NCBI GenBank assembly: GCA_963575745.1
Contig: CAUYUJ010000869.1
Coordinates: 467,053 to 531,052 of the forward strand
From: Prorocentrum cordatum
Lineage: Eukaryota; Sar; Dinophyceae; Prorocentrales; Prorocentraceae
DNA length: 64,000 nucleotides
Reading direction: 5' to 3'
Of the stretch, positions 10,717 through 32,855 are shown in pieces. The translations under genes were made by a program, and so were the position numbers. Every line of letters starts with the position of its first letter. Within the stretch, counting starts at the first letter, position 1. A model generated the notes under the pieces. That model saw only the letters and a program-made list of their open reading frames with translations. It did not search any database and was not told the DNA's origin.

Positions 10717-10718
10717 TA

Positions 10719-10742
10719 CTTTGAGGCCCGCCTCAAACTATC
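10719..10742 (+). repeat. Left terminal inverted repeat
   Basis: 24 bp beginning CTTTGAGGCCCGCCTCAAA and ending CTATC. Its first 19 bases contain a self-complementary hairpin (TTTGAGGC-CC-GCCTCAAA), so each TIR is itself palindromic. AACTAT-type motifs follow at about 10745, 10782 and 10792. Confidence 0.92.
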
Positions 10743-11400
10743 TGAACTATCCACTAACTTTGTTTCAAAGTTATGTTAAGAAACTATCATGAAACTATAA
10801 TGAAATTATAATACAACCAACACACAAACCAATCAAACCAAAAAACACAACCAAAACCCAAAACAAAACAAAACAAACAAAAAAACAAACAACACAAAAC
10901 AAAACACAACCAACACCAAAAAAAACACAAACAAAACCAAAAACACACGACCCATACCCACAAAAAAACACCAAAACAAAAACACAACCCAAACCACGAA
11001 AAAAAACACAAACAAAACCAAAGAACACACAAACCAAACCAATAATAACACACAAAAAAACAACACCAACAGTTAAACAAAACAAAACCCATCAACCAAA
11101 CATCAACCAACCACCTCAACCAACAACACACCAACCCTATCAGCCACACATCAACCACATCAGCAAAACAAACCACCAACCACATCAAACGAAATCAAGC
11201 CAACCACATCAAATGAAATCACCAATTCACATCAACCAACCGAAAAAATAAATCACCAACCACATCAAACGAAACCACCAACCACATCAAATGAAATCAC
11301 CAAACACATCAAACAACCGGAAAATGAAATCACCAACCACATCAAACGAAATGAAACCAAAAGCACGCACATACAAAACGAAAGCGGCCAAACACACGCC
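10743..11400. other. A/C-rich left subterminal region
   Basis: An AT-rich segment with repeated AACTAT motifs to about 10810 is followed by strongly strand-asymmetric A/C sequence (AAAACAAAACC) to about 11090. A degenerate minisatellite of CAACCACATCAAACGAAAT follows to about 11370. No coding potential is seen. Confidence 0.7.
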
Positions 11401-11459
11401 ATGTCGATGCGCCGCTGACGTCGTCGCCATCGAAGCGGAGAAAGGGAGGGAACATGATG

Positions 11460-11756
11460 AGGATGAGTGAATATTAGTTGTACGATGAGGATTTCCGATG
11501 TTGATGTTAATGATGCTAGAGTGCTTGTAGTGATGATGATGATGATGGTGACGATGACGATGATGATAGTGATGGTGGCGATGCTCATTGCAATCATGAT
11601 GATGAGTTGGATGATGAGGATGATATGGCGAGCGTGCTCGCCAAGGTTCGTGCCGATATGGCGAGCATTGAGGATGATAGTTGCGGAATGGAGGTTGGCA
11701 TGGCGAGCATGCTCGCCAAGGTTCGTGCCGATATGGCGAGCATGCTCGCCAAGGTT
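11460..11756. repeat. GATGAT tract and 34-bp repeats carrying palindromes
   Basis: GATGATGAT-type sequence at 11516-11620 is followed by three copies of a 34-bp unit, GATATGGCGAGC...GCTCGCCAAGG plus spacer. Two intact units contain the perfect 16-bp palindrome GGCGAGCATGCTCGCC (11702-11717 and 11735-11750). A variant (GT centre) is at 11627-11642. Confidence 0.88.
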
Positions 11757-11879
11757 CGTCTGCCTCTGCTCATCATCCCCCCAACCTCAGCATGATCATC
11801 ATCAGCAGCATCGCCGTCGCCAACATCTACGTCGCCATCGGTGCGCGCGCTCTTTAACGCGCGCTTATATAGTGAGGCA

Positions 11880-12110
11880 CGCGGTGGCGGCGAGGCTCCA
11901 GCTCGCTAACCGCGCGCCTCAGATGAAGTACTCGTGGGGCATGGCGCCCACGGAGCATTTGCAGCCGCGCCTCGAGGAGCCCCCCGACGGCACGATGGCG
12001 AGCCAGCCGGCGAGCGGTGCGTGCTTTGCACGCGCCGTTCGCCGAGTGCAAGCTCCGCCAGGACGAGGGCCCGAATTCGGGTGAAACTCGCCGAGCGGAC
12101 GAAGCAGACC
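11880..12110 (+). pseudogene. Plus-strand copy of an inverted coding duplication
   Basis: The plus strand reads MKYSWGMAPTEHLQPRLEE followed by a frame that differs from its partner. The minus strand at 12300-12530 reads RRYPWGAMTPAEHLAPRLIE. The nucleotide similarity is clear but diverged and extends over about 200 bp, continuing past the coding part into a shared CCTGAGNGCGNCGCCCC segment. The copy loses the reading frame after PRLEE, so it appears to be a decayed duplicate. Confidence 0.65.
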
Positions 12111-12295
12111 TGAGCGCGACGCCCCCCATCCCCCTCCATACCACATGCGCGAACATTGCGCGGGGGCAAAGCTCTACTGCAACATGCATGCCTGCCCTCT
12201 CCGCCGAGCAAAGCTCGCGCAATACCACCTCCATCAATCGCCACCCACCACTCCTTCCCCCTATCCCTCCCCCATATACCCGCGGGGCGCCGCAC

Positions 12296-12590
12296 TCAGG
12301 TCCACCTCGTCCGCCTGGCGAGGTCCACCTGCGGGCCCTCGCCCCTGCAGAGCTGCAGGTACTCGGCGAAGGGCGCGCGCAACGCACGCGACACGCCCAC
12401 CAGCTGGTCCACCATCGCGCCGCCGAGGAAGTCCTCGATCAAGCGCGGCGCCAAGTGCTCCGCGGGTGTCATGGCGCCCCACGGGTACCTCCGCCGCGCG
12501 ATCTTCGCGAGCTTCTCATCGCTCGCGGCGCCAGCTCCCCAAGCGGCGCGGCGGCGCGCCAGGCGAGGGGCCATGGCGGGCGAAGCCTGC
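12296..12590 (-). pseudogene. Minus-strand copy of the inverted coding duplication
   Basis: The frame contains DEKLAKIARRRYPWGAMTP, AEHLAPRLIEDFLGGAMVDQ and LVGVSRALRAPFAEYL, then QLCRGEGPQVDLARR. The composition is protein-like and better preserved than in its plus-strand partner. It could be an exon near the 3' end of the transposase-like transcription unit or of a separate small gene. No domain is recognised. The two copies converge on an unshared centre at 12130-12290 that contains GCGCGAACATTGCGCG and CGAGCAAAGCTCG palindromes. Confidence 0.5.
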
Positions 12591-12889
12591 CTCGAACGGG
12601 GGGGGGGGGGATGAACGCAAACGCGCCAAGCCTCGAGCACGACGAGGCGGCGAATGCATCCAAAATCAATTCATGCGCGAGGTGCGCTCGCATGCAACCG
12701 CATGAATACAACAAATGTGGCCCCATATGCACACGTACTTGCATCACGAATCGCGTCATATGCAATCAACGGTCGCACGATTACAACACACGTGATCACA
12801 CGCGACAGCACGAGATGGCAGAATGGGCGAGCAACGCTCGCGAGCATGTGTACATGCGCGCACATTTTTTCACGGCCGCTTGCGGTCGT

Positions 12890-15800
12890 CGAATGGTACA
12901 TACGCCAGGTCTTCGCTATGCGCACTGGCGCATTGCATGCTCTGGAGCCTCACGAGCTTCAGAGACGAGCCGCCCTTAAGAGCGACCCACCGCCCGCACG
13001 ATAAGGCCTCGCAGTGCATGCACTGAACGAAGGCCAGGCTCACGCCGTCTACCTCAACGAGCTCATGGACCTTCCCGAACTCGGCGTTGCCCGCCTCTCG
13101 GTTCGATCGTTTACGCGCGACGCGCCACAGACACCGAGAATGCACGCATGCATCACTTACATGTGAGAAGCCAGCATTTGCGAAGACTGTCGGCGTGCGA
13201 AGCACGCCGTGCAAAGCAACGGTCGGGGCAACGATGGCGACGATCCGATGGGGGATCGATGGACGATCGGCGGGTTGATATCGGAAGCGGTTACACAGGA
13301 TGGACGCGTGAAAAACACGCGATTGGAATCACTGAGGGCATGCATATCACGCCGCATGGGCAATGACCACGACGTCGATGGCGGCGACAGGAACGATGGA
13401 GAAGGGGCGAAGTGGAGGGTGATTCACGCGAAGCGGTCGAAGGGCCGCGCAGCTGCACCGCTGCGCCGCCAGGCGCTCTTATTCTGGCAAGCGCGCGAGC
13501 CTGTCGCTCGAGCCACGCTCGCAAGGGACGGCGAGCGAGGACGAGCTCGTCGCCCCAGCCTCGCTCGCAAGTGGCGGCGAGCGGGGAGCCTGTCGCTCCA
13601 GCCTCGCTCGCAAGTCGACGTCATCGTCGTCGTCGACGTCATCGTCCCTCGTCGTCGTCCTCCTGCTCCTCCTCCTGCTCCTGCTCCCCCATCCTCCTCC
13701 TCATCCTCCTCCTCCTCCGACGTCGGCGGGCCCCGCTCAGAGGGCGGGCCCATATGGGCCCGCGCGCGGCCCCGCGGCGGCGCGCGCGGCCGCAGCTGCC
13801 TCCACCAGCTGCGCGGGCGGCGCCTTGGGCGGCGGCGCGCCAGGAGGCGGCGGCGGCGGCACAGCCCGCTGCTCGAAGGAGGCCACCGCCGCCCTATGGC
13901 GGGATGCAGCGCGCTGCTGCTGCGCGAGCTCGCGCACCGCGGCCTGGCTCGCCGCCTCCTCAGCGCGGCGAACCATCCGCGCCTCCGCCTGCAGCTCTCG
14001 GCGGTGGAAGCCGCGAGCCCAGGCCTGCTCCTGGCGCCCCTGCAGCGCCTCGCGGAGGCCCTGCAGGCGCCCCTCCTCCGCGCGCCCCCCCGCCTCGTTG
14101 AAGACTGCCTGCGGGAGAAGCGGGATGAATGAGAAGGAGGAGGAGGATTGGTGAAAAGAGTTCAGAGGAGGACGAGGAGGAGGTTGGGAGGAGCGAGCGA
14201 TGCTCACAAGGAGAAGGACAGGCGCCTGCGCCATGAACGGCGGCGCCTGCAGCCCGTGCAAGCGGACGACCGCCTCCAGGCGCTCGCGCAGCACCTCCCC
14301 CCCCCCTCGCCAGGCGCGCCGCGACGGTCTCCGCGTAGGCGGATTCCGACACCGTCGCCACCAGCTGCGCCATCTCGACCAGGGCCTGGTCCTGCGCCGC
14401 CTCGCTGGTCCTGGCGCTGACCAGCGTCTGCTGGTCAGCGTGGTGCTGGTTCCTGAGCGCCAGCAGCCAGCGCCCGTCCTGCTCCTCGCGGCAGTGGGGC
14501 TCCGCGAAGCGCAACTCGCGGGCCGCGTCCTGGATGTGCTGCACCTCCAGGCGCGAGACGCGCGCCTCCTGGCGTGCCCGAAGGGGGGAAAAAGGGGAAG
14601 CAGACACGTATAGATCATCATCGGTTTGCTCGGGGAGAGCAACGCTCCCCATGACCAACCCGCTGAGATACATACCCTTCGGCGATCTAGCTCGCAATCA
14701 TGCATGCATGCATGGAGACACGCGCCTCTTGGAGCTCGTACCGCAGCTCATCAGCGTCGAAGTCTCCATGTGCACGGCCCTGCGAGGGGGGGGTGTAACG
14801 TCGGTGGGGGATGCGGTTTGATCTGGTGCCAGGCTCGATCGAGCAACGCTCGCGATTAATAACGCAGGCGAGAAAAGCCCGCTATACAAAACGTCATATA
14901 CCTATGGATGTGGTGGTGGGGTATTATATTGTTAACACCCGATGCGGCGGCGGCGGCGGCGGCGGCGGGAACTCGCGCTGCGCGGCGACCTCCTCGAAGC
15001 CGTGCTGCGACCGCTCCGCGTGCCACCGCGCGGAGTGCCGCCGCCTGTCGGAGCGGGCGGTCGCATCCTCGGCGCGGGCGGCCATCTCCGCCGCCTCTGG
15101 GGCGAAGGCCGCCCAGTTCAAGCGGCCAATGGCCGCCTCCAAGCGGTCGCGCTGCCCGCCCGCGCTGGCGCTGCCGCGGGGGGGGAGGGGGGGGGGGGGG
15201 AGGTGCGCCTGCGGCCAGGGGGGGCGCGCCGCTGCCGCGGCGGCGCACGCGGCCGCGGGCGGCGGCGGCGGCGCTGCCATGGCGCGCAGCAGGGCGCGCG
15301 GCGGAGCCGAGGTGCGGGGGGGGGGGGGACAGGGGGCGCGCCACCTATAGGGTCGACTCGACCCCCGCCCCTGTGGCCGAGCGGCAGCGGAGTGAAGTAG
15401 GGTGAACGGAGCGGGGGGTGAAGACGAGAGGGGCGAGAATACGAGAAGACGAGGGGGGTGAAGACGGGATTGACGACGAGAAGATTGAAGTAGAATGAGC
15501 GAAGAAGAAGATTGACGGAGAGAGTATTGACGGAGAGAAGGATTGACGGATAGAAGGATTGACGGAGAGAAGGAATGAAGGAAGGAGGGAAGAATGTGAA
15601 TTGATGCCCTGTGCTCCTCCCCCACCCACCCTGCTTCCGAGCCTGGATGCTGACCATGTCACCGAGGCGCACCATGCCGCGATCGAGAGCCGCGGCGGAG
15701 CTCGCGCGCACGTTGGCGTCACCAAATATCCGCTCGTCCAACGCACGGTAAGACAACATGTTAATACATGATGGGTCGCATATCATGGCGAGCGTTGCTC

Positions 15801-18800
15801 GACATCATGCGTAAGATGATCTACGTGCAGCGGGAAATGCGATAAGCATTATGGATATCCCGCAGGACTTTCTGGCGCATGCCCCGCGGCGGGCTGGGCT
15901 TGACCAGGCCACGTATGGTCACATGCGCAGTTAGAGAGATTCACCGAAGCATCCGCCAACACATTCATCAGCGAGCGCTGCTCGCTGCGCCACCCCACCA
16001 CCGATGTCATCCGCGAGCGTTGCTCGCTGCGCCACCTCCGTGTTGCAGAGCTGCCACAACTCGAAGCACGTTATCTCCTCCATGACGCCGAGCTCGAAGG
16101 AGGCGAGCGTGCGGCGCGACCGCAAGTACCGCTTGACTACGCGGTGCTTGCGCTCCATCGTCATGGCTGCGACGAGGAAGCCGTGGCGGTACAGCTGGAG
16201 CGGGAGGTGGAAGGCGTAATGGTGTTTTGGTCGAAATGCTACGGCACCATGCGCCTCCTTGAACAATCCGCGCGTCAATTGGCGTGACCCCCAGCGCATC
16301 CGATGGACCGAGCAATGCTCGCCGATAAGCATGTGTGCGGTAGCAGCAGGCTGTCGGAGCACTCACTGAGTGAATCGCGGACATGCTACTTGAGCTTGCG
16401 ACGAGCAACGCTCGCTGCATAAGTTGATACTGTTGGGGCGTCGGAAGTTCGTGCAGAACGTCTGCGTCCAGATGCCGATTGATCGCAGCCGCTAGCTGCG
16501 ACGGTCACACCATGCCCACGTTGCGTGCGGCCATCAGCAGTTCCAGCACGTCGAAGGCAGCCAACATGCTCCGCACCTTCGGCTCGTCGGAGCGCGTCAT
16601 CACTACCTGTCCAACGCGCGTGGGACCCCGATGGGATAGTTCATCCATCATCACAGGTCCCACACCTCCCCGACCCATATATCTTCCCATACCTGCCTCC
16701 CACGCGGCGTGCATGCGTGCCACCTCGCGCAGATATCGCGATGCGATTGGCGCAAGCGTGCAGAACTCGCCGCAATCGCTCTGGAACTTATCGTTCTTCA
16801 GGGCGTTGCGGATCTTGTTCGGCTCGAAAAGCGAGCCGAGGCGCGGAAAGGCGCGCGGCGGCGCGATTGCACGCACGAGCTCGCCGAGCTCGGCGTAGGA
16901 CGCGACCGTCCTACAGGATGACATGAAGGTTCCGAACTCGGCGTCGCAGATGCCATCTTGCAGGCAGGTGTGCGACCAGTCGTACACGATTGATTGCGAC
17001 GGCCGAACCAGCATGTCCCCGATGAGCTGGTACGGGGTGCGCGAGAAGCCGCTGAACAGAGCGACGCGATCGTCCAACGGGTTCTCCTGGACGCGCCGCA
17101 CGGCATCGACGATGGTCTCGTCAGTGTGCAACCTAAGTTGGCGAGCGGATACCGATCGCGTCAGCGTCGACCGTGCGAGCTTCGCTCGCCATCCCGATTG
17201 CGATCCGACCACAGCGTGGCGCGAGCGACGCTCGCGTCACGGGGTGCACCCCACAAAGCAGCTTGAGTGCCAGACGCGAATGTGGAGAAGCCGGTCTCCG
17301 CGATGCTGACGATCCCGTCGTCGTGCTGGTGGAGCCCATCTCCTCGCTCGGCACGAGTGTGCGTGTGAAGCACGCAATTCTGACACAATGCGGAAGGTTT
17401 CGCGCCACCATGTCCCTTGGATGCCAGTATCTCCTTGATACCAGGCTCGTCGCACGCAATAACGGCGAGCTCCAAGAAGACGCGGACCTGGCGCCCCCCC
17501 TTGAGCACCAAGTTGATGCCGACGTCGCGCACGTCGGTCCCCGTGCGCTCGAAGAACCACTTCATGCACTCGTTGGATATCTGCGCCAGCTGGCCCTCGG
17601 CCTTCGCCCAGACATGCTGCCGGACGCCGCGTATTGTCAGCCAGCTATGTTCGCGCCCAAGTGCCAGCGGACCGAATCCGCCGATAGTCACATGTATGAC
17701 ACACCAGAAGCATGAGCGGTACGAGCGTAGCTCGCCGATCTACTAATATCACCGTTGACCTTGGCGGAGTTGGGCAAAGACGTGCGTTATTCCATAATCG
17801 ACCAATAGAAGAGGCCAGACTTACGTGTGTGGCTCTTCGAGATGGCGTCACTGGGGTTCACGCCGCCTTGGTCCGCACGCCTCATTGTCGAGGCAGGGTG
17901 GCGTGTAAGGCGCGCGATGCCAGCAACGCTCGCTCCCTGCTGCGAGCAACGCTCGCGTTAGAGTCGTGACGGCGGGAGGTCAATGAGACTGATGAATACA
18001 GCACGATCGACCACGGCTTCTCGCGACTACACTGCGTCGCGTCGAAGGTCGCCGCCAGCAGGTCAGAGACGTACGTGCTGCGCGCCGCGACACAGCGCAG
18101 CATCTCCAGGGGGTTATGGATCGCGACGTGCACGTCGCCGCCTGAATCCATGGTCAGGGGCACAGACTCCACGAGTCTGCCATACGTACCGCGCGCTTGG
18201 CACTGTGCCTTGCGCGCGCGGTACCGGGCGCCCCTGCTCCAGGTTTCAGGGGCGCCGCCGCTATCAGCAAGATTAAGTCCGCTAGGCCAGCGCGTTGCGA
18301 CCACGATGCTGGCATACGATACGACATGTCACTATACACATGTATTGCGCGAGCTAAGCTCGCACATGCTGTTGAGGAGCGGGCGCCGCAAGGCAGTCGG
18401 ATAGATTGGTGATCGCGCGCTGGCTGGCCCAGCTCTCTTTCCCCAGCCGCAGCACCTTCCACACCTGCGTTTCATCGTGGTCAATCGAAGCACGCTTTGG
18501 CATGGCAGCCCGCGCGGCGCGCGCGGTGCGTCAACATGCGTCCACCTTGAACCAAGCCTACGGAATGTATCGCGCGTTCGCCAGACGAGCAAAGCTCGCT
18601 GAACCTTAACAAGGTAGCATTGGGTGAGGAGCTGGTGGCATTGATGACGACGGGAAGTGTGCAGTCAAGCGAGTGCACTGCAGTTGAACTGACATGTGTT
18701 TTCGGTGGCAGTCGCGCAACGCACGAACTGCCGTCGCGCGGGCGCCGCCGCGCAGCCGCGCCCGCGGGCGCGACTACTCTGGGGGGGCCCAGCGATCAAT

Positions 18801-20744
18801 CCACATGGTCTTGAGCTTGCGGTACCACTCGCGCGCCATGCCCGTGGCGGTGTCGCGTGAGAAGCCCTCCTTCTTCATGCCCTTGCGAACCATGTGGTGA
18901 CCCCACGACTGGAAGACGGCCATCGTGGATGACGTCTCCAGCTTCTCCCCCACATGGGCGGCGTCGAGCTGTCCCGCCCAAGCGGCGGGGTTGGATTGTT
19001 CACCAACCAGCCGCCGCCGCACGCGAAGCGCGCGCACCGCTCCCGTCAAGGAAGCGGCGGCGGCGGCTGGGCGCCGCATAGGCGCCGCTGCCGCCGCGCT
19101 CCCCGCCGCTGCGGGGCGGCGCTTGGCCGCCGCAGCTCTGAGGTGGCTGTCGTGGGCCGATTCGAACCGCTCCTCAATCTCCCTGACAGAGGCTGCGGCG
19201 GCGACCGATGCGACCGCTGTCTCGTCTGGCTCCTCCCTCCACGCACCGAGGACGGCGCGGGGGCCGAGGTCCGTCTTCGTCAACACGCCGAAGCTGTTGA
19301 TGCTCATGGCAGCGGGACATGTCCGCTCCACATCAGCAAGCGGCGCCGCAGAAGCAGACGATGTCAGCTCCGGCTGCTCATGCTTCACCTCCTGCTTCAC
19401 CTTCACCTCCTGCTTCACATCCTTCTTGTCCTCGTCGTCATCCTTCTTCTCGGCCTTCACACATTCCTTTTTTGGTTTCTTGCACTCGCTGGCGATCTGA
19501 TATCTGATCGCCTGGCGGTACTGTTCTGGCACCGCGTCCAGAAACGCAGGGTCTTTCTGGCGATTCCGCTTTTCAGCACGGCGGCTGAACGGCAGGATCG
19601 TGTCCAGCTCTGGGATCCTCGCAGTCCCTGACATGGGCCAATCACGGCGCGTAATGCGGCGACGCATGCCAGCGAGCGACGCTCGCACGCCTCGCCAAAG
19701 CGAGCACTACATGCGCCTGAAAGCGACGCTCAATATACAATACCACCCCCACCCCAACCCCACCCCCCATCTTACCCCCGCTTCCCGACGTAGACTGCAC
19801 GGGAGATATGTCGCGTCAGCGCCATGTATGTTGACTGCTGGCGGCAGCTTCGCGTCGCCGTACGCGAAGCGGCGGGTCGCGTCGTCGAGCTCGCTCAGCT
19901 CGCCGTACACCAAGATGCGCTGCAGACTGGGGTCACGAGGTCGCTTCTTGGCATACGCGTTGATGATCGACCTCAGCGACGCTTTGTGCTTCAGCGCGCC
20001 ATCGTGCGAGAACTCAAGGTTCAAGGCATACGCCATCACCGCGACCATGCGAAACACGGTGCTCTCGCACGGCTTGAACAGCCCGATGCGCCACGCTCGG
20101 TTGGCTAAAATACGCATCCCCGCGCCATTATGGGGGAGCCACGCTGGAAAGAACCTGCCGAAGTTGCGATCAAAGCTCGTACCGCGTACAACATGCAACG
20201 ATGCTGCGCATGGCGTTCTGGGATAGGCGGCACGCGTGGAAACAAGCCCAGAATACCACACGTAGCGTGGACGATGGGCTTCGAGCGGAGCTTCGCCCAC
20301 TCCTCCTGGGTGATGTAGTTCTCGAACCTGAGGGCGTGTTGGCATCGCGAGCAAAGCTCGCATATTGTCTGACACCATCGCGAGCGAAGCTCGATGGCGC
20401 ATTTGTATACATGGCACGGGGGTGCACATTATTCGTACGATGTGCCTCAAGCAGTGCTGGTACGGCTGCTTGTCGGTCTTCGTGGAGCTGGCGCCGATCG
20501 TCTCGACGAGATTCCGAAGTCCGTTCTTCTGGCGATCGGACCACGGACCGATGTCGATGGCCGTGACCAGATCCTGTACGGTCGCGGCGTCGAGCCCGAC
20601 TAGCTTGGCCAGACGGGCGTTGAGAGCGATGCACAGCTTGGCGATCGTTCGCTCCCGCTCGCCGCCGAGGGCGTCCACCAGCGAGCCCGCGCCGCGGAGC
20701 TCGTGCTCGAGCTCGCGCGCGAGCTCGAGCGCGGTCGCGGGCAT
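12890..20744 (-). CDS. Transposase-like multi-exon gene of the 22-kb element
   Basis: The gene starts at ATG 20744 (MPATALELARELEHELRG). Exon 1 (20744-20428) joins exon 2 (from 20327, FENYITQEEWAKL) by a 100-nt GT-AG intron, and exon 3 is 20104-19836. Later protein blocks, in order, are a Lys/Glu-rich exon (about 19640-18774), VWKVLRLGKESWASQRAITN (about 18460-18366), GTYGRLVESVPLTM with HNPLEMLRCVAARS and KPWSIVLY (about 18240-18010), a block ending GHGGAKPSALCQNC (17700-17260), an exon beginning HTDETIVDAVRRVQ with YDWSHTCLQDGICDAEF (17147-16724), RPKHHYAFHLPLQLYRHGF with MERKHRVVKRYL (about 16295-16020), FGDANVRASSAAALDRGMV (about 15760-15640) and GKVHELVEVDGVSLAF (about 13110-12890). From memory, this block order matches a large protein family expanded in dinoflagellate genomes. 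Spaced conserved Asp and Glu residues plus the position inside TIRs make a DDE-type transposase likely. Catalytic residues are not proven, and several exon edges are approximate. Confidence 0.6.
13737..15340 (-). CDS. Coiled-coil exons inside the transposase-like gene
   Basis: Three minus-strand exon-like blocks lie between two well-matched blocks of the transposase-like gene. They are about 15300-14970 (QRDRLEAAIGRLNWAAFAPE, AERSQHGFEEVAAQREF), about 14770-14340 (DADELRYELQEARVS; RLEVQHIQDAARELRFAEPH; TVSESAYAETVAARLA) and about 14100-13740 (GRAEEGRLQGLREALQGRQ, ELQAEARMVRRAEEAASQAA). They are Ala/Glu/Arg/Gln-rich with heptad spacing, so they are predicted to be long coiled coils with Pro/Ala linkers. 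A phase-0 junction ARKQ|AGNAEFGK would splice from 15638 straight to about 13110 and skip them. They may therefore be alternative exons, an insertion in an intron, or a nested gene. Confidence 0.45.
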
Positions 20745-21348
20745 GGTCCGCCGCCGCGCCCGCGGTGATGGCGGCCCACGGGCGTGCGGGCTGTGGCGGC
20801 CACTCACTCGGGCCACCAAACGGCTGCCAAATTCGGCAGTGAGCGAAGCTCACAGGCATGTGTTTGTGACGCAAGAGAGGGTTGTGCTGACAGCGCGAGC
20901 ATAGCTCGCCATTGAGCCCGAGGTGATTCGCAATACCGCAACTGCGAGCATGCTCGCAGTTGCACGTGACAAACACTATAACCATTGTGGTGGTTATGCT
21001 GGAGGGTCGACACATGATCGGCGTGGAGAAGAATGAGGCAGAAAGTGAGCGACATTTCGTCCTAGCGCGACACCGCTCTTACCTCCATCCGCGGGGCACT
21101 GGCACGCCGGCGCCTATGCAAGACTGGACGGACAGGCGAGGTAGTGACGAATCTGCTGATGTATTCATGCGTACGGTGGCGGAGCCACGATCGTGTGTAA
21201 CAGCGCATTTGCACATGTACACACGACGACACCGTTACCACACGCATGAAACATGACGACGATATGCCACACACGTCGGGAGTATGTCTTTGCATCGCTT
21301 GCGAAATCAAACTGGAAAATAACAAACCAGAAAAACACAACTCGAAAC

Positions 21349-21512
21349 TGTAATGTATAGCAAGCTATACATTGCAGATCTGCAATGTATAGCAAGCTAT
21401 ACATTGCAGGTCTGCAATGTATAGCTTGCTAATGCTGTGTAGTAACAGATGTTTCTGAGCAAGCTATACATTGCAGATCTGCAATGTATAGCTTGCTATA
21501 CATTGCAGTGCC
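21349..21512. repeat. Cruciform cluster built from TGTATAGC and TTGCAGATCTGCAA
   Basis: Alternating copies of GTATAGC-AA-GCTATAC (or its TT form) and the perfect palindrome CATTGCAGATCTGCAATG run from 21349 to about 21431. After a 30-bp unique interval they resume from about 21460 to 21509. The whole can fold into several alternative hairpins. No coding potential is seen. Possible roles are a binding site array, a palindromic mini-transposon, or a recombination hot spot. Confidence 0.93.
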
Positions 21513-21677: not shown

Positions 21678-22111
21678 AATTAGCTGGCGGCCGTGGCTCT
21701 GATGTCGGCATCGTCGACGTGGTCGCTATCCTCATATGTCTCATCGTCGTCAACATTATGATCGTTGTCGCCGCCATCGTCGTCGCCATCGTCGCATCAG
21801 CATCGATGACGTCTGCATCGTCGTGGGCGTCGTCGCTCTAGCATCGTCGCGTTAACCGTTATCGTCGTAGTCGCCACTGTCGTCGCCATCGTCGTCGCCG
21901 TCGGTGGCGTGGAGGAGGAGGAGGAGGAAGATGGCGCGCCACGCGCGCCGCCGCCGAGTGCGCCCGAAGGCGCGCCGCTCAGCGCCCGCGGGCGCGCCGC
22001 TCTGAATGCGCCCGCGGGGGCGCAGGCGAGGCCGCAGGCGCGGGCCGCCGCCGAGGCCGCCACCGAGGCCGCCGCCGAGGCCGCCGACTCGGCGCCGCCG
22101 AGGCCGCCGCC

Positions 22112-22146
22112 GCTGGTGCGACACTTATTTGTACGTGTCGCACCAG
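22112..22146. repeat. Hairpin with 12-bp arms CTGGTGCGACAC / GTGTCGCACCAG
   Basis: Perfect 12-bp arms surround about 11 bases (TTATTTGTAC core). On the minus strand the sequence reads DWCDTYK followed by a stop, so the hairpin overlaps the end of the last open frame of gene D. It could act at the 3' end of that transcript or sit in an intron. Confidence 0.85.
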
Positions 22147-23660
22147 TCCGCGCAGCTGATGCTGCGCCGCGCGCGGTTGCGCCACGACGCAACATGCGGC
22201 GGCGGCTGGCGCTCGGGGATGGCAGCGCCCACCGCGCCGCGCGGCGCGGCTGCGGCTGCGGCGCGGCGCAGCGCCACCCGCGCTCCCGCGGCTGCTGCTG
22301 CTCGCCGCAGTCGGGCGCCGCGGCGGCGTCGCTGGCCTCCTCGCCGCAGTCGGGCGCTGCGGCGATGGCGCGCGCGGCGGTGGCACGCGGCGCCTGGCCG
22401 CGGGCGCAGCGGTCGGACGCGGCGCCGGCGGCCGCTGCTTCGGCGCTGGCGGCGGCGGCGGTGGCGGAGGCGGCCGCGCAGGCGGCGCCGTCGCCACGCC
22501 CGCAGCTTGGACGACATAGTCCGATGACGACCGCAACGAGCTATGCTCAATGCGACCGCCATCGAAAGACACGGCGCACACGAGCAATGCTCGCGCGACG
22601 CAACACGACAGGACGACTGACTTGCCTTGGCGACCGCCGCGGCTACTATCTCCCAGTGGGGGTGGGGCAGGCTGACGCCACTTGGGGGTGGGGCGATGCC
22701 AAACCCCCAAGTAGCGTAAGCCTACCCCACCCCTCATCCGATATCATTCCCACATGGCGAGCGATGCTCACCAAACTCACCCATCCCCCGACTTTGTTAC
22801 CCCCTGCGGCCTTCCTGGACATGACCTTGAAGGTGCTGTTCAGGTAGGCACCGAAGGCGCCCGAGGTGGTCTCCGCCCACCGCCACCCAGTGGGCGGCGG
22901 CACGGGCACTCCGTACCCTGTGGGCGGCCACGCCCCCACGCCCTCCTCCTGCGGGGGGCCAATCGACTGGCGGAACTGCGGCGGGCCGTCGCCGTGCATC
23001 CACCGCTCGAGCGGCTCCTCCTCCTGCGCCACGGGCGGCGCCACGGGCGCGACGGGCGCGCAGTCCTCGGTCGCGGGCGGCAGGTCCTACGATCGCAACT
23101 ACCAACGACCTGGCCGATCACATCAGCGATCGAAGATCGCGGCGGCGATCGGCAATTTCGTTGGTAAGCATATATACGAACAAGGCGAGTTTAAAGCTCG
23201 CAGTGGGCTCGTATACATACATACATGAGGAGGGTGATGTACATTTGATACCCGCTGTCCTCCCACATCACCTGCGGGTCGCCGCGCCTGGCCCTCTCGA
23301 GCCTCGCCGCGTCCACCTGATCGATGGTGTCGCCCTGCTGGGACAGGGCGACCGCGCGTGCAACGCGCGCGATGCTGACGCATACCACGCACGAGCAGCG
23401 CTCGCACACGGTCTGCGTGAGCCTGAACGACATCGACCGAGCGAAGCTCGCGACACGACTATGTTAGCCTTGAGCCCGTCGCCAGTCTCCGCCAGCGGGA
23501 ACTCCTCCAGCCAGTCGCCAGTCTCCGCCTCGGGCGCCTGCTGGAGCGCGCAATGACCACAGTTGGGGCACCCCCATGCCCCGATGCGATCACATCGGCG
23601 TCGCAACCCAACTGCTACTACCAGATCACTGTCATCCCATACTGACTCGTCAGTACGGGG
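22125..23660 (-). CDS. Gene D: unidentified protein with a zinc-ribbon-like motif
   Basis: Minus-strand exon-like blocks, in order, are IGAWGCPNCGHCALQQAPEA with TGDWLEEFPLAETGDGLKAN (about 23610-23460), GDTIDQVDAARLERARRGDP with QVMWEDSGYQMYITLL (about 23340-23235), and EEEPLERWMHGDGPPQFRQ with TTSGAFGAYLNSTFKVMSRK (about 23100-22790). A very Ala/Pro-rich stretch ends in DWCDTYK near 22125. CPNC followed by CERC near 23410 could form a zinc ribbon if both are exonic. GCGAGC palindromes at 23392-23404 and 23438-23450 lie in the first gap. Exon borders, start and stop are not fixed, and no family is recognised. Confidence 0.45.
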
Positions 23661-23819
23661 TGGCGGCGATCTTGTAGGAGCGTGTGGGTTGCGACGCCGT
23701 GGGCGCGGCCACTCGGTGGTCATCACACCCGCGCTGGCCTCGCCACCAGCGTCGGCAGGCTCCAAGCCACCGCAGGGGCCCCGTGGGCTCGGAGAAAGGC
23801 AGGGTGGGGAGGGGCGCCC

Positions 23820-24120
23820 TACCGAGCGTCATCCTCCTCATCATCCTCAACATCATCATCCTCATCACCCTGCCCATCATCATCCCCCCACCCTCCGCTC
23901 CGCCTTCTCCTCTGATCACCCGTCTCCGCTCATCCGCCTCCGCTCCTCATCCTTCTCATCCTCCTCCGAGCCTCTTCCCCCCCCCGCTCCTCCTCCGCCG
24001 CTCCGTCTCATCCCCTGATCACCCCCCCACCCTCCTCCTCCTCCTACTGCTCCCCCCATCCTCCTTATGCTCCTCCTCCTGCTCCTCCACTATCCATGCC
24101 GACACCATCCACCGCGGCAG
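23820..24120. other. Pyrimidine-rich TCC/TCA tract
   Basis: TCATCCTCCTCATCATCC-type sequence with no coding signal apart from biased frames. Confidence 0.7.
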
Positions 24121-24379
24121 TCCTGCGTCACACCCCGCGGCGGCGGCGCGGGCTGCTGGCGTTGGCTGAGCCGCGGCGGCTTCACCGCTGGCGCGCGCGG
24201 CACCGCGCTGGTGCTCGCAGCACCTGCGAGAGCAGCCGACCCCCACGCTTCCCCCTGGGGATGCAAATGCCATGCCAAAATGCGCGATACACGCATGTGA
24301 AGGCACGCATGCATGCCTTCACATACGCGCACCGCCTACACGCGGGCATGCCCGCACGTAATGGCGAGAATGCTCGCCG

Positions 24380-24459
24380 ACACACTATACATACATACAT
24401 ACATACATACATACATACATACATACATACATACATACATACATACATGCATACATACA

Positions 24460-24493
<34 letters not shown>

Positions 24494-24700
24494 CATACAT
24501 ACATACATACACACATCCACACATACCCACATACCTGCCTCTATACATGCATACCTACATACCTGCATACATACATACCTACATACCTACATACCTACAT
24601 ACCTACATGCCTACATCCACGCATACATCCATCCACCCATCCACCCTTACATAGATACATAGATACATACACACATACATACATACATACATACATGCTT
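24380..24700. repeat. CATA tetranucleotide array
   Basis: About 300 bp of ACAT repeats, perfect for the first 110 bp and drifting to CTACATAC and CATCCATC variants. The palindrome GGCGAGAATGCTCGCC lies immediately upstream, at 24363-24378. Confidence 0.96.
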
Positions 24701-25407
24701 GACCCCGTCTCCTTCGCCGCGGAGCACGGGCAGGTCGGCAACATGCGCCGCTGGGCACGGGCCGCGCGACGCGCGGCAGCACCACTGGCGCGATGGGGCT
24801 TGCCTAGCCAAAACCGGCTGCATCGTCATCGCCTTCGACGACGGACGGCGGCGTCTTCGATCACGTCATCGCGCTCTCGAAACAGGGCATCGCTCGTCGC
24901 CGCGCACCCTCCCACCGATCCATTGTTACTGTCAGCTGAATCATACCACCTCCACCTTCCCCCCCCCCATCCCAATCACACCCCCGCGTCGACCGTCGCC
25001 ATGCCCCACTCGATGCCAATGGTAGAAGGTCCAGGGCGACGACCAGCGAGATCGACGGGATTGAGCGAATGCGAGTATGATCGCATGCGGCTTGGGCGAG
25101 TGAATGCGAGCATTCTCGCACGCGCGCTCTGTTTACAATAGATCATGCGCGATCTGCTCTCCGCGCACAGGCCCGCCCGAGGAGAAGGGGGAGGGGGAGG
25201 AGGAGGAGGGGGAGGAGGACGAGGAGGACGAGAGGAGGGGGGGGAGGGGGAGGAGGAGGAGGACAAGCTAGGTGCGCTCGCGTCGTATCTGACGTCCTAC
25301 CCCTCCCTCCCATCCGTCACCATGACGCTGATTTTCTCTATCCGCGGACGCGTGTCGTAGCGGACCTGTGGCTCCGCGCGCGCGTGCGTAGTGGGTGGTG
25401 GTGCACG

Positions 25408-25439
<32 letters not shown>

Positions 25440-26017
25440 TGGTTGTGGTGGTGGTGGTGGTGGTGCTGGTGCTGGTGATGGTGCTGGCGATGGGGCTCGT
25501 GCTGGTGGCGGTGCTGGTGCTGGCGGTGGTTGCGATGGTGGTGGTGGTGGCAGTGGCGGCGGTGGTGGTGCGGCGCGGTGGTGGCGGGCGGATGGGCGCG
25601 CGAGAAAGAGGCCCGCGCTGGGGCGAGAACGCCATCCTGAACGACGGAGGCCAAACACCGATCAGAAAATGAGGCCCACGCTGCAGCGGGAGCACGAGTC
25701 GGAACGATTCGGAGGCAGAAATGAGCCGACGAAAACCCGTTTCCCGGGAATCCTGCGTGTAAAAAAACAATACGCGGAGGGCGCTCGGCCCGAAAATGAC
25801 GCCGGCGCCTCAGCGAGAGTCGTTTCCCGGGATTTCCCGGGCATCCTGCGTGTAAAAAAACAATACGCGGAGAGTGCTTGGCCATCACCCGGACGCCATC
25901 AGGGGAAGAGGGAAAGCATTTTCATATTGAATAATTGTGGAGGAGGATGAGGATGAGGAGGAGGAGAAGGAGCGGGAGGAGGAGGAGGAGGGAGGAGGTA
26001 CCGCCGCGCGCGCTGCC
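24701..26017. other. Mostly low-complexity spacer between genes C and D
   Basis: It holds GGA repeats (25185-25262), GTGC/GGTGGT repeats (25408-25580) and GGA again (25940-26000). A frame near 24700-24900 looks mildly protein-like on both strands, but nothing can be named. One GCGAGC-type palindrome is at 25105-25120. Confidence 0.5.
25736..25886 (+). repeat. Direct repeat pair with TTTCCCGGGA...TGCGTGTAAAAAAAC
   Basis: A segment of about 40 bp (TTTCCCGGG, ATCCTGCGTG, poly-A7, CAATACGCGGAG) occurs at 25740-25780 and again at about 25835-25876, roughly 94 bp apart. The second copy has an extra TTTCCCGGG. The function is unknown. Confidence 0.85.
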
Positions 26018-27101
26018 TCAGCCAAGGCGACTGCGCACGCGGCGGACCAAGGGCTTGAAGTCCATGGCCGCCCGCGCAAACTTCTGCCCGTCGTACCCCA
26101 TCACCTGGCGCAGCCGCCACGGCGGGATATCGTTCGCGGCCTTCCAGTCCTTCCACACGGCCGCGACGGACGCGTCGTAGTGGACCTTGCGTGCGTCGCA
26201 CGCGCGCCGGCAACTATACGGCGTGCGAGGCACGCCAGACAACTATACGGCGCGCGAAGCACGCCAGACATGTATACATGTCCGCGCACATCCCCGCACC
26301 TGAACGTTGCCGAGGTGGTCACCATGGATGGCGCCCTCGACCGTCACCCACATCTGATGCGGCGGGTGAGGGCGAAGGTCCTCGTGCAACTTCAGGTTGA
26401 GGTTCTTGACCGTAAAGTAGCGCACGATCAGCCAGTAGCACTCTGGGCACACCACGCGCCTACTCCACGATGTCCGCTACCTGATGGTGGTCAGGTACGA
26501 TGCGTGCGCAATTTGTTGAGGTTCGCTCACCGTGCCCCTCCATGGTAAGCGGCGTACGCGCGCATGCATCTCTGCGAGCATGTCTCGCCACCCACTCCCA
26601 CGCCCGTTAGAGATCTTGATTTGAGACGGCGGCGTGCGACAGCACTTGGGAAGCGTTTGAAAACGTTCAGGTAGGTAGCCTCCTTGTCGTGGCGCGACAC
26701 CTGGGGCTGAAGGAGCGGCCGCCCCGCCGTCTTCACGAATTGCCACTTGCCGATGTTGGCGTTCAAGGACTGAACTGGCACCTTGCGGCCACAGCGCGCT
26801 ACCGATCGATGATCGGACACCCTGATGGCGAGGAACGCTCGCGTGTCGCGCAGCGTGCATGGCGGCACTTGTACAGAACCCGCCCCAACCTGTTGCACAT
26901 GGCGAGCGATGCTCGCGCGCGTCAGTGCGAGCACAGCTCGCAAGTGGAGTGCGACCTAAGGCGCTGACAGTTGTCGTCCAGCGCAGTCTCCGTGAACACC
27001 GCCCCGCCCTTGTGCCGCGCGGTCCGAGGATCGAACAGCGTGACCGACGGGTCCTCGTCTATCGCGAGGAACGCGTACTCGGTGCAGACGAACGCGGCCA
27101 T
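26018..27101 (-). CDS. Gene C: unidentified multi-exon protein of the 22-kb element
   Basis: ATG at 27101 opens MAAFVCTEYAFLAIDEDPSV followed by TLFDPRTARHKGGAVFTET. After an intron (about 26955-26822) come VSDHRSVARCGRKVPVQSLN, ANIGKWQFVKTAGRPLL and ATYLNVFKRFPSAVARRR. Then CPECYWLIVRYFTVKNLN and HQMWVTVEGAIHGDHLGNV (about 26455-26290), and a last exon with AAVWKDWKAANDIPPWRLRQ ending RVRSRLG and a stop at 26018. Palindromes at 26902-26916 and 26927-26941 fall in the first intron. The CPEC pair may bind metal. No family is recognised. It lies between genes B and D on the same strand and ends about 0.2 kb from the next low-complexity spacer. Confidence 0.6.
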
Positions 27102-27339
27102 GGCGCGCGCGGGGGCGCGCGGCGCGGCGCAAACGTGGAAACGATCTGCAATCGCTGCGGCACGGGTCGGGGCGCGATCGACTCCGAGTTGTCGGAAGAG
27201 GTGAGAGGGGGAGGAGGATCAAGATGAGGCGGGGGAGGAGGGGAATGAGGAGGGGTGATGTTAACTGTGTCAGGTGATGGCGGTGGACATGATCGCTTTT
27301 CAACCGAGCGCATGCGCAACCGCGCGGCTCTGTAAACGC

Positions 27340-29345
27340 CTAGGGGTCAACAAAGTGACCAAACAGGTTGACCTGGCGCTTGGGACGCGACGCCGAGGAC
27401 GTCGCCACGGGCGACGCCGAGGGCGACGCCGAGGGCGTCGCCGAGGGCGACGCCTCAGGTGAACACCCACTGTCGGGCATGCTCGGCTGCGGGTGAGCCT
27501 GAGCTGCCGACGCTGTCGCCTCAGGTGAACCCACGCTGTCGACGCAAGCGTCGCTGCTGTGCCTGGCGTCGTAGATAATCTGCAAGTTCGCCTCCGTGAG
27601 GCGAACACCCTCGACGTATTTCTCCCAATCCTGTGGGTATGCCAACTGAACCTACAGTGCAAGGGAAATGTAAAGAAGAAAAGAAAAATGGTGTCAGTAG
27701 GATATCTGCATGCGCGAGCATTGCTCTCGCGTACATGCGAATCTGGACGCCGCGCGGTCCTCGCAATGCGCTGGAGTCGCGTGGGACTCCTTGGGACCTT
27801 CCGCGGTCATGTGCTTCACGACCATGGACCAGATGATTCCACCTGTCGTCTGGGACCGCTTGATCCACTTTACGCTCGGCGACCCCAGCTCAACAGGCGG
27901 GTCGCCGTCGGCCTCGCGCTTGTAGCCGCGATATTGCACGTGAACATCTGGCAGATCAAGAAGTTCATCGCACCTCGCCAACCAAATCAAGAAGTCCGGC
28001 TCCGAGCTATGCTCGAATGGATCACGTGAGACGATAGTCTGTCACACCTAGAGAGCGAGGCTCGCTGCAGCAGAAGCGCTGCACCTTGTGAACCTTCTGT
28101 GGTCGAAGACGTATGGGGGCGCGGGCACGCGCGAGCAGAATGATTGATGCTATCCTCGCTAAAATCTAGGTACAGCTTCTCGCCCTTGTTCGGCGTGGCC
28201 TTGACGAGCAGTTGGGTCGGTCCAAAGGACCGACCCATGCTGTTGAAGGACGGGCACGTGATCACCACACACGTCGGCACTCTGGCCGACAAGTAGAGCT
28301 TGCCCCGACGCCCCGTCGTCACGATTGCCGACGGATCATCGGCCAGTGGGCCCTAGCGGCGGCACAAGTTGCGAGTATGCTCGCATACCGTATTAGATCG
28401 CGAGCGAAGCTCGCATGCACGAAAACTTTTCGGAATGCAACGACCTGCGGCATCTTCTTCTCCATGTGGCCGTCCACTGCCGCGTCGCGCAACGCCGTGA
28501 GCTGGAAGCGCCACTCGGCGCCCTGCATCGGGCTGCCGCTGTGCATGTCATAACCGAGGAACCTATAGCTGGCACATCTGTGCGCATACATACGGCGCGA
28601 ACTACGCGCGACACAAACGACCACAAAAGAAACGGAGCCGAGCAAACTCTCGGCTCTGTTGGTCTATGCGAACGAACTCCTTCTCTTCGATCGCCATCAA
28701 GTCGGGCAGCCACGGGTGCCACTGCTTCACGCCGCTGCCGCCGTAGACCGCCACGGTGTCGCGACGCACCCCCGCAGGGCGAGGGCCCTTCGGCGCCATG
28801 GCGCCCACCGAGCCCGATCCGCCGCGGGCGCACGGCGCGCCGCACTGCTTCGCGGTGCTCGAGGAGCTCGCGCGGCGCACATCACACTCTGCTCACCACG
28901 TGCGTCGATCAAGTGCGCTGCGCTGCCTCGGCGAGCATTCTCGCCACATTGGCACTGATAGCTGTCGTGGCATGGAGGCGGATGGGAGGTGAAGAGAGAG
29001 AGTTTCGAGCGCCCACGCGCTTATAAGCAGTCGCATGGTCGATGTTGGGCAGGGCGTCAGCACAGCTCATGCGCCCCGCCCCCTCCCTCGACCAGGAGCC
29101 TTGCCGCCCTTGCCGCCCTTGACGCCGCTGCCGCCCTTGCCGCCCTTGCCGCCCTTGTCGCCCTTGCTGCCACCCTTGCTGCCCTTGCCGCCCATGTCGC
29201 GGTTGGCGGCGCCGTCGCCGCTGCCGGCTGCGCCACCCGCGCCGCCGCCAATGTCCTGGAGCGGACCCAGAATGAGCTGTCCCTCTATGGTGTCATTCAC
29301 GTTGACCCACGTAGGGAAGCTCACTGCCTTGCCCATGGTTGACAT
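27340..29345 (-). CDS. Gene B: unidentified multi-exon protein with Gly/Lys-rich region
   Basis: ATG at 29345 opens MSTMGKAVSFPTWVNVNDTI followed by EGQLILGPLQ and a Gly/Lys-rich stretch of KGGKGG units that may bind nucleic acid. Later minus-strand blocks are DTVAVYGGSGVKQWHPWLPD (about 28760-28670), FLGYDMHSGSPMQGAEWRFQ with LRDAAVDGHMEKKMPQVVAF (about 28565-28430), KLYLSARVPTCVVITCPSFN (about 28310-28150), VKWIKRSQTTGGIIWSMVVK (about 27960-27770) and YPQDWEKYVEGVRLTEANLQ. It ends RQVNLFGHFVDP with a stop at 27340. A Pro/Ser/Ala-rich linker precedes the end. Palindromes at 28930, 28400, 28370 and 28003 lie between these blocks. The start is only 79 bp from the stop of gene A. No family is recognised. 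Confidence 0.6.
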
Positions 29346-29423
29346 TTCAGTCGAGCGAAGCTCGACTTTGTGGGCCCCCTCGTGGACCAGCTGTACATAC
29401 CAGAATGGGGTCGACGAGAAGAT

Positions 29424-32400
29424 CTACTCCTCGTCGAGGCGGTCACGCTGTTTCCTAAGCGTGGCCGCGTACGCGGTGCCGCCCAGTTCAAGCACGGGCG
29501 GCAGCACGACAGATGCAACGAAGTCTCCGCCAACGGAGATTCGCATGTCGGGCGAGTTCTTGTCGACGCTGATCCTGCATACGCTGCAACGATCTGCAGC
29601 TCGCCGACCTTGAAGGAGGTCTTCGCAATCAAGTTCACCCTGCTATTATCCTGGGCTATACGGGTGGCGTGACGTCACTACATCTGACTGTGTCGCATGC
29701 AGAGCTTAGCTCGCATTGGGGCGGGATCGGGGGGCTTTATAAGTCGTGAGTGCGAGCGTCGTTCGTGAGTTTGCTACACCGCGGGGTATCATGCTGTCTG
29801 TACGCCAACTTTCCCCCGCCGAAGATCTTGACGTCCCCGATGGCGGTGAGTGCGACACGCAGGCGCGCCTTCGTGTCCTCGTTCGCCGCATCCTTATTCC
29901 CATGCCGAAACTTGTCGAGCTGCGCGCAATCGACAACCTGGCACGCACGCATCATACACATCCTCGCCGCCCCGCCCCCTCCCACCCACCAAACAACCAC
30001 TGCCAAGACGATGCGACCCTGTCGGCGGGCAAAGCTCGAATCGTTGGGTCTATGCAACGAATTACAAAAACGAGACCTTGGGTTCGCTTTTCACGACCAC
30101 ATTGTAGCCGTCGAGGACCTCGCTCATCTTCAGCATGATGACATCATCAGACGAACCACGTACGTGGACCGTCTGATCATCGATGGCAGTGATCACGTAG
30201 CTGGTCATCTCCGTATCCTTACGCTTGTCGACGGCGGCGATGGTTGCGCCAACCACGAAACCCTTGGCCTGAAAGGTCAGCGGGTCGACGTCGCCACCGC
30301 CAGATAATGACACGTGCGCCATCCCCAAAGCCTTGCCGAGGGGCGCAAGCTTGGCCTTCTTCGGCGCACGGGCATCGACCTCATCGTCGCCGACGCCTGT
30401 CTCGATGTCGAGCCGCGGCAACGGCACGTTGCGCACACGCAGCCCGTCGGCGTTCATGACCTCCCAGAAGTCGGCCACCACGTCGACCATAGAGGTGCAC
30501 TGCTTGCGCCCTTCGCACGTCTTGCCCAAAACCTGGGCTTGCTACGCGCGCGCGTGCGCAAGCGAACATCGCTCGCCATCGATCGCTTCCTGGCGAGCAT
30601 CGCTCTCGCCCCCGCCCACCGCTTCCGAGCGAGCATTGCTCGACGCCCCCCGCCCCAGTACCATCATGACCAGGCGGATGCCGAGCTGCGACAAGTGCTT
30701 AAGCCTGACGAGCTCGCTGGTGTGCGTGTAGGCCGTCGTGAACTGCCTGCGCGCATGCATGATGCTGGCCGCTCGCACGGCCTTGCTCCTGTTCTTGCCG
30801 CCAGGGGGCATGGACTTGTAGTCAGATGTGCTCAAGAGCGCGATCTCGCCGCCTGGCTCGCCCACCTAGGGGGGGGGGGGGGGCGACGGCAGTTGCGCCT
30901 CGATCACCGCTAATATACACAGCGGGCCCTCCGCGAACTGCAGCTGGCTGGGCGCCTGGGGACTGTCAGCCGCGATGGTGCGCTCTGTGCTGAGGAGCCG
31001 CTCGAACTGCTCGAGGAACGAGCATGGCCCCCTCTTCCCCACCACCCCACGCTCTGACGAAAGCGATGTCCGCACTGCCCCGCCATGGCGGTGATCAGAC
31101 AGTCGTGCAAGGCAAGCAGTTTCCTCGACCCCCCGCCCCCACCCCCCTGCCGCACTCGTGCCTGCCATCCTGTGCCCTCGCCCCGAGGCGGCGGGTGCGC
31201 TCGCCATGGGCGGTGGCGGTCGTGGCGTGAGCCGCGGCGTGAGCCGATTGTCTAGCACGGCAGCTCCCTCCCGAGCTCGTTCAGCATGCCGAGCGCCGCG
31301 ACGCGCTCCACCTTGGCCCAGTCGTCGGCGGTGTCGGGGCTCGTCTGCGCGCGAGCGATGAGCCACACCTTGTTCACTCGCTGCACCGTCGTGGCAACGC
31401 GTGCCGCGCCGTGGTCCGCGTTGCCAGACTGCGCTAGGGGCCTCATGAGCTCGGGGCACCGCGTCACCAACAACGAGCTGATGACGCTGCACCGCAAGCA
31501 GCGCTCGAGCGGCTCTTTGAACGACGGCTGCCACTCACATATGCGAGCCATCGGGACGCGGCCAGACGCGTCCGATATGTCCGCGTTCATGGACCGCCCA
31601 GCGCCGTGGATGCAGCGCAGCGTGGCCGCGGTGTGCGAGCATCGCAGCGTGGCGATCTGAAGCTCGCTGGGATCCTCGATGAGGGGCAGCGGGGGGTCCC
31701 ACCCCACCGACAACTTCACGTTGAAGTCGCGGATCGTGGTGTCGCCGTTAGGGATCCGCTAACCCGCCGTGAGCAGGTTTGCACGCTTGCCGATCCGATC
31801 TTGCGAGATGTCGCTCGCAATAGCGCGCAAGGCACGCATGTCTCGCTTGCGCCGATCTTGCTGCACGAAACACGGACGCGTGCCTTGACAGCAACGGGGG
31901 AATGGCGCAAGCCGAATGGCTCTCGCACGCGAGCGCCTTCGACGTCTCGTCGTCGTCCCAGCCCTTCACCACCAGGATGCCGAGGAGGTCGCGCACGTCG
32001 TAGGGGACGAAGCCCGCGCCGTCCCTGTTGCCAGGGTGCACGGCCGCCTTCGTCGCGTGGACGCGCTTCGACCCGCAGAGGTCGAGGGCCTTGATTGCGC
32101 CCAGGATCCGAGCCTGGAACGCACTGACGCCCTCGACCTCGTTGCCGAGGTGAAACGACTCGATCTGCTCGTTGATGAGCGGCGCCAGCGCGATGGCGCG
32201 CTCCTCCTTTGAGCGCTTGGACCTCACGCCAGCTACACTGGCCTTAGTTACACATGTGCGCATCGCGTGACACTCGGGAGCAAAGCTCGCCATTGGGCAA
32301 GGTTTGCATTATGCGAGCATGCTCGCCAACATTGCAACGCCACAACAACATACCGCGTCACGCGAGCAAACCTCACCGCGGAAACTAAGGCGGATACCTC

Positions 32401-32436
32401 CGACGCGGCCTTGACTGCGTCGCTCGACAGCGCCAT
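29424..32436 (-). CDS. Gene A: multi-exon gene of the 22-kb element
   Basis: This is the best-resolved gene of the element. Exon 1 (32436-32377, MALSSDAVKAASEVSALVSA) joins exon 2 (32242-31937, ASVAGVRSKRSKEER onward) across a 134-nt GT-AG intron. Exon 3 (31758-31259) follows a likely GC donor, and exon 4 begins at 31123 (KLLALHDCLITAMAGQCGH). Later exons include FERLLSTERTIAADSP and GGEIALLSTSDYKSMPPGGK. The exon ending at 30077 joins 29937-29810 and then 29639 onward, all in phase (SEPK|VVDCAQLDKF; FGGGK|VNLIAKTSFK). The last exon needs one base of frame correction near 29582 to reach SPDMRISVGGDFVASVV and a TAG at 29424-29426. From memory, the HPGNRDGAGFVPYDV block resembles an unnamed family common in dinoflagellate genomes. 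The function is unknown. Introns are 134-178 nt and several carry palindromes. Confidence 0.68.
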
Positions 32437-32829
32437 AGCGATCGCGACGCGACTGCTACAGCTCGGGCAAGGGCGGCAGGGGCGGCAAAGGCTGCACCAC
32501 TCGGATCAACACGGCTACAAAAGAACAGAAAACAGAAAACTGAAAAATACATTGGGAAAGAAAGAAGAAACAAAAAACATGAAATTGGACAAAAAACTCT
32601 GTTTGTAATAAAAATACAACTTAAATCGGGAAACAAATCACAACATTCAAAAGTGTTTTGGCGATGTTGCAATTTAGATTCGGATGGTTATCGAATAGTT
32701 TGCTGCATGTTGAGGTCGGATAATTATAAAATAGTTTATGGATGGTTGCGCAAACTATTCATAAACTATCATATGACTATCCTACAACTGTTCATAAATT
32801 AATCATATTCTATTCGATATCTATTCTGA
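32437..32829. other. Right subterminal AT-rich region of the transposon
   Basis: A-rich to about 32600, then AT-rich with repeated AATAGTTT/AAACTATT motifs (about 32692, 32731, 32754 and 32765) that mirror the AACTAT motifs at the left end. No coding is seen. Such repeated subterminal motifs are usual transposase-binding sites. Confidence 0.75.
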
Positions 32830-32853
32830 GATAGTTTGAGGTGGGCCTCAAAG
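32830..32853 (-). repeat. Right terminal inverted repeat
   Basis: 24 bp, the reverse complement of the left end with a single difference (GTGGGC here against GCGGGC expected). It also contains its own TTTGAGG/CCTCAAA hairpin and is followed by TA at 32854-32855. Confidence 0.92.
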
Positions 32854-32855
32854 TA

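Follow-up and report, generated by a model that had tools for sequence, protein, structure and literature searches.

Several known groups of DNA transposons invite comparison with the element analysed here. The CMCT clade comprises EnSpm/CACTA, Mirage, Chapaev, Transib, Plavaka, ESTA and Lanisha; according to PMC12730594, its transposases have the residues D, D and E, the last two of which enclose C(2)C and H(3-4)H, and its elements carry inverted repeats, make 2-5 bp duplications and mostly end in 5'-CA..TG-3'. In a 64,000-nucleotide stretch of the red-tide alga Prorocentrum cordatum (the window), the 22-kb segment 10719-32853 is one damaged copy from a family of very large multi-gene transposons that resembles this clade. 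We read it as a defective copy of a large DNA transposon that holds several genes and is moved by a DDE transposase (here called T2) of RAG1/Transib-like fold, and put the probability of this reading at roughly 0.8. At the sequence level, the reading rests on paired ends with matched 2-bp duplications, on long collinear copies and short copies that keep the ends and a central repeat, on the invariant catalytic-type and zinc-type residues of the T2 homologues and the RAG1 match of one homologue's model, and on a second, distant family whose ends are related and in which the duplications are also 2 bp and genes like R1, T1 and T2 follow the same order.

The CMCT motifs are present in all seven T2 homologues compared, the window copy having lost the first D and one C. 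The duplications measure 2 bp (12 of 13 rows of paired ends, and both complete copies of the second family), but the termini are CTT..AAG in both families, and the conserved R1 and T1 genes and a T2 that matches no Pfam family are further features of its own. PlavakaA (PMC12730594) has 2-bp duplications and the CMCT motifs as here, with TGT..ACA termini. The CAC(TA) termini and 3-bp duplications of EnSpm/CACTA both differ, and the TA duplications of ESTA are found here in only 4 of 12 matching rows. The KDZ group (Zisupton, Dileera, Kyakuja) makes 7-8 bp duplications (PMC12730594), and Maverick/Polinton elements 5-6 bp by the figure of the first-pass annotation. The 20.5-kb soybean Tgmt*, a plant CACTA element, is similar in size, subterminal repeated motifs, a transposase with a probable DNA-binding function, and defective derivatives (PMC2613891); it differs in its termini, duplication and accessory genes, which here are separate and in conserved order. 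Because the termini differ, and as the placement was made without a tree, we file the family as a new lineage beside the CMCT transposons, outside the named families. The first-pass suggestion of an undescribed system agrees with the literature searched, in which the family was not found and which covered few subscription papers and no bioRxiv preprints.

The boundaries proposed in the first-pass annotation proved exact to the base. The ends, subterminal regions and central array are placed as follows:

10717-10718, unstranded: target duplication TA on the A-end side (sequence)
10719-10743, plus: A-end terminal inverted repeat (TIR) of 25 bp, CTTTGAGGCCCGCCTCAAACTATCT; the same ends are found across the genome
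10744-11087, plus: A-end subterminal region with AACTAT motifs, common to the long copies and weaker in short copies C1670, C4316 and C6825
21347-21508, unstranded: central array of a 32-bp palindromic unit, present in 12 of 13 elements (lost in C21360)
32640-32828, minus: B-end subterminal region, common to long and short elements, with four AACTAT/ATAGTT motifs in the last 250 bp
32829-32853, minus: B-end TIR of 25 bp, with one mismatch to the A end (sequence)
32854-32855, unstranded: target duplication TA on the B-end side (sequence)

The alignment of the two TIRs ends after these 25 bp. When 150 bp of each flank are joined over one TA, they align across the junction to the neighbouring minisatellite unit with no gap nearby; the insertion target was therefore an intact repeat array, as the annotation had reconstructed it. 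The mirrored subterminal motifs were likewise recovered: A ends hold 1-4 and B ends 4-7 AACTAT/ATAGTT motifs per 250 bp, against 0.05-0.12 in the interiors and none in 400-bp flanks. The central unit starts at 0.37-0.59 of element length.

The P. cordatum assembly (4,128,499,153 bases in 21,875 contigs) was searched with a 27-bp end pattern at up to three mismatches. This gave 50 matches; the reversed control pattern gave none. Further loci with the same ends and gene order were found, as the annotation had anticipated. Convergent pairs account for 26 of the matches (13 pairs, spaced 9,517-26,610 bp), each with one type A and one type B end, which differ just inside the TIR. Ends occurring mainly unpaired had been named beforehand as an argument against an element. 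Slightly more than half are paired, and the other 24 are single at three mismatches, so that close to half of the ends lack a partner by this strict pattern; these may have diverged partners, lie at contig ends or be true solo ends. Two A ends, L007 (C21511, long type) and L008 (C3863, short type), are among those with no partner at this threshold.

The genes and possible genes of the window copy lie on the minus strand, including the supported models T2, R1 and T1:

12320-12568, minus: possible exon L2 (open frame only)
13863-15145, minus: possible gene L1, three pieces with coiled-coil-like open frames (open frames only)
16036-18503, minus: T2, probable DDE transposase with about six introns (homology; 3' end approximate)
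18503-18369, 18255-17993, 17870-17790, 17676-17254, 17131-16694, 16600-16466 and 16266-16036, minus: approximate exons of T2 (homology)
18777-20744, minus: T1, gene for a Lys-rich protein, about four exons (relative in an 11.7-kb element described below)
26021-27101, minus: possible gene R3, four pieces (open frames only)
27343-28799, minus: possible gene R2, split into five (ORF2 of the 11.7-kb element matches it weakly, E 0.014)
29070-32230, minus: gene R1, split into about ten pieces (the 11.7-kb element has a relative)

Two P. cordatum proteins are 80% and 49% identical to R1, whose structure model was of no use (pLDDT 29.6), and T1 had no match in the protein database. Neither Rfam at gathering scores nor a tRNA scan gave a hit in the window.

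The residues D, D, C(2)C, H(3)H and E are invariant in all seven T2 homologues (P0001-P0006 and the T2 of the 11.7-kb element), and from this pattern T2 is probably a DDE transposase. RAG1 is the vertebrate enzyme by which antibody genes are cut and joined. The structure model of one T2 homologue has a RAG1-like catalytic core fold and matches RAG1 at 12-13% identity; judged by this model, T2 probably has a RAG1-type fold. T2 itself matched no Pfam family, and its profile A3 found no credible match among PDB sequences. The second D and the first zinc-type C are separated by 19 in both RAG1 and T2, and both have C-x2-C, but RAG1 has H(4)H with 20 from the last H to E (PMC4914335), against an invariant H(3)H and 18 in the T2 family. 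RAG1, RAG-like and Transib transposases share the fold of the modelled homologue; the profile comparison with PDB sequences gave no sequence match to them, and no RAG2-like gene was identified here.

Searching the genome with P0001 gave 3,659 first-look candidates, 64 of which were scored. All 64 reached E 1.1e-61 or better, 60 had no internal stop and 63 lay in open frames of 627-926 aa. Three places of a second family are 98.5-99.5% alike along about 6 kb. At C18977 stands an intronless element of 11,714 bp, 99.3% like that at C6113. It starts with CTTGGATGC and ends with GCATCCAAG; CTTTGAGGC and CTTGGATGC are the same at seven of nine places. Both complete copies are flanked by matching dinucleotides, CA/CA at C18977 and TA/TA at C6113; at C13466 only the right flank, TG, was read. 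This 11.7-kb element carries an R1 relative, ORF2, a T1 relative and T2 on one strand as single open frames, in the order found on the minus strand of the window. The R1 relative matches P0008 at E 1e-12 in a single comparison and the window at E 2e-5 by tblastn; for the T1 relative, a single comparison gave E 5e-12 and tblastn to the window E 0.007. ORF2 (235 aa) may match R2 (E 0.014, single comparison). The several intron-rich genes and the one transposase-like gene of the first-pass annotation are thus present, but the extra genes are not simply cargo, because a distant family has R1- and T1-like genes, perhaps with R2, next to a T2 relative and in unchanged order.

T2 could itself be cargo, with the ends moved by another, unseen transposase. 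The window copy has a broken T2 and several other copies a damaged one, and relatives of T2 are so numerous in the genome that a chance capture is possible. The second family, however, with its related ends and 2-bp duplications, also has T2; in a third group of T2 genes (C13922, C17677, C1447; right ends only read) all three right termini have GCATCCAAG and then TA; and no other transposase was matched in six frames. We regard this explanation as unlikely, though it survives better than those that follow.

Mobilisation by T2 must also be set against a viral origin, from a Polinton-like element or an endogenised virus, with T2 as its integrase-like enzyme. The size of the element and its several conserved genes with no assigned function would suit such an origin in a protist, and ORF2 has one weak match to a phage structural family (E 0.0089). 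A Pfam search in six frames (E 0.05) matched no family in the element, and so gave no polymerase B, packaging ATPase or capsid gene of the Maverick/Polinton kind, but introns split the element's genes; sub-threshold hits were MipZ on one exon (E 0.054) and Hjc in one of five spliced models (E 0.23). None of the four proteins of the intronless element had a Pfam family above the cut-off either, the R1 relative having only sub-threshold hits to EHN (0.075) and Neocarzinostat (0.21). Among viral contigs, 81 matches to the T2 pattern and 95 to the R1 pattern yielded no confirmed relative; for fast-evolving or intron-split genes this test, like the Pfam search, is a weak one. Together with the 2-bp duplications, these results make a viral origin very improbable.

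The dinucleotides outside the two ends agree in 12 of the 13 rows (TA 4, TG 6, CA 1, GG 1), the exception being C6825. C1547 and C14799 have identical flanks and represent a single insertion. At 100% identity, C6003 and C21210 have 500 bp of A flank and about 1 kb of element in common but differ in the B flank, so that C6003 may be an assembly join or a recombinant. With the former two merged and C6003 left out, 10 of 11 insertions match (TA 4, TG 4, CA 1, GG 1). The family therefore makes a 2-bp duplication, and the TA reported in the first-pass annotation is true of the window copy but not of the family, which is not a TA-specific inserter. Tc1/mariner elements are known always to duplicate TA. 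There is correspondingly little room for an ordinary Tc1/mariner-like inserter that had swallowed host genes: TA lies on both sides of the window copy, and several genes have no assigned function, but eight of the 12 matching rows show TG, CA or GG, T2 has the residue pattern and the RAG1 match described above, and the gene order recurs in the distant family.

That the copies are segmental duplications or assembly artefacts is the least probable of all: the flanks shared by C1547 and C14799 and by C6003 and C21210, and the identity of C869 (the window) and C6003 over 12716-14215, would fit, but the other insertions compared have matched dinucleotides and flanks unrelated apart from short simple repeats, and the empty site was rebuilt within a minisatellite. 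Patches of 100% identity occur between copies otherwise differing by 5-12% (window 12716-14215 against C6003; the A end of C6003 against C21210) and could reflect gene conversion, recombination or assembly joins.

Seven copies are long and collinear, namely C869, C6003, C21210, C259, C19789, C13401 and C21360, the last with a large internal deletion; their identity over BLAST pieces is 87.8-92.5%. At L026-L028 (C19789) and L015-L016 (C13401), about 5 kb have been inserted; the C19789 insertion, near the A end, contains tandem repeats resembling those in the short elements. The short forms (six rows, five insertions, 9.5-11.1 kb) have in common with the window copy the end regions and the central 32-bp array. 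Outside these, one weak protein match was found between window 20108-20428 and the short element C14897 (E 7.5e-5). In C1670, the short row examined for tandem repeats, most of the sequence is made up of simple repeats and repeats of 65 to 90 bp; the remaining short rows look similar.

The first-pass annotation called the transposon complete, which holds for its two ends and empty site but not for its coding capacity. The T2 of the window has G at the first D, which is D in five of six other copies (C21360 lacks that part), S at the first C of C(2)C, which is C in C259, C19789, C6003 and C13401, and an in-frame TGA at a codon that is sense in five of six other copies and lies out of frame in C259. 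Judged by these changes, the window copy is defective and a working T2 is no longer predicted from it. Damage in other copies takes the form of frameshifts, an insertion, deletions or stops; the T2 pieces of C19789 contain no stop or frameshift. With frames fixed, seven gene models give pN/pS values of 1.03-2.21 among copies; thus no selection is seen among copies since spreading. Codon-position scans in several windows of the seven-copy alignment had hinted at purifying selection, which was dropped on these values; our guess is that the early signal reflected unequal mutation at CG sites.

In the window family, T2 is interrupted by about six short introns (93-199 bp), with borders set by homology, several of which lack GT or AG at the chosen places; its relatives listed from the P0001 search are single open frames. 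The hairpin CGAGC-N2-5-GCTCG occurs 34 times in the element, where 200 first-order shuffles gave a mean of 0.42 and no more than 4, and once in the remaining 41.9 kb of the window. It is found 23-41 times per long copy, once or twice per short row and not at all in the 11.7-kb element. Only one of the 34 lies wholly within the 7,886 bp of exon pieces and three touch them, while 16 fall in gaps between exon pieces of one gene, with one in five of the six T2 introns; the remainder are outside modelled genes. Introns of P. cordatum are reported to be rich in introner elements (PMC10666404), and the hairpin-bearing introns are likely introners.

Two other features of the window were recorded beyond the B end. 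An endonuclease/exonuclease/phosphatase domain (PF03372, E 9e-7; 36436-37023, minus) lies in the long open frame 35377-38223, which is probably a LINE-type retrotransposon adjoining the insertion. A ubiquitin domain (PF00240, E 2.1e-16; 40937-41155, minus) closes a long open frame that is rich in repeats.

In the mechanism we propose, T2 would bring together an A end and a B end by way of the TIR and of subterminal sites of the AACTAT type, excise the element and join it across a 2-bp stagger at TA/TG-like dinucleotides. T1 may act as a DNA-binding partner, with R1 and perhaps R2 as helpers; the short elements would be moved in trans, and the central array may have a role of its own.

We further think it rather probable, with less assurance than for the window copy, that dinoflagellates harbour a large undescribed superfamily of multi-gene transposons. 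It would be defined by a RAG1-fold transposase (in some cases with a C-terminal BAH-like domain), an R1 - (R2) - T1 - T2 block, termini of the CTTKGADGC type and 2-bp duplications; a single genome would hold thousands of candidate transposase places, and one lineage would have had its genes filled with hairpin-bearing, introner-like introns. Such a family offers a concrete, testable DNA transposon system for the repeat-rich genomes of dinoflagellates, in which the near-identical intronless copies look recent. If the fold holds, RAG1-type transposases would extend to another branch of eukaryotes. That distant families have kept the gene block suggests a role in movement for the extra genes, and the intron-rich lineage beside its intronless relatives provides a clean case for studying intron gain.
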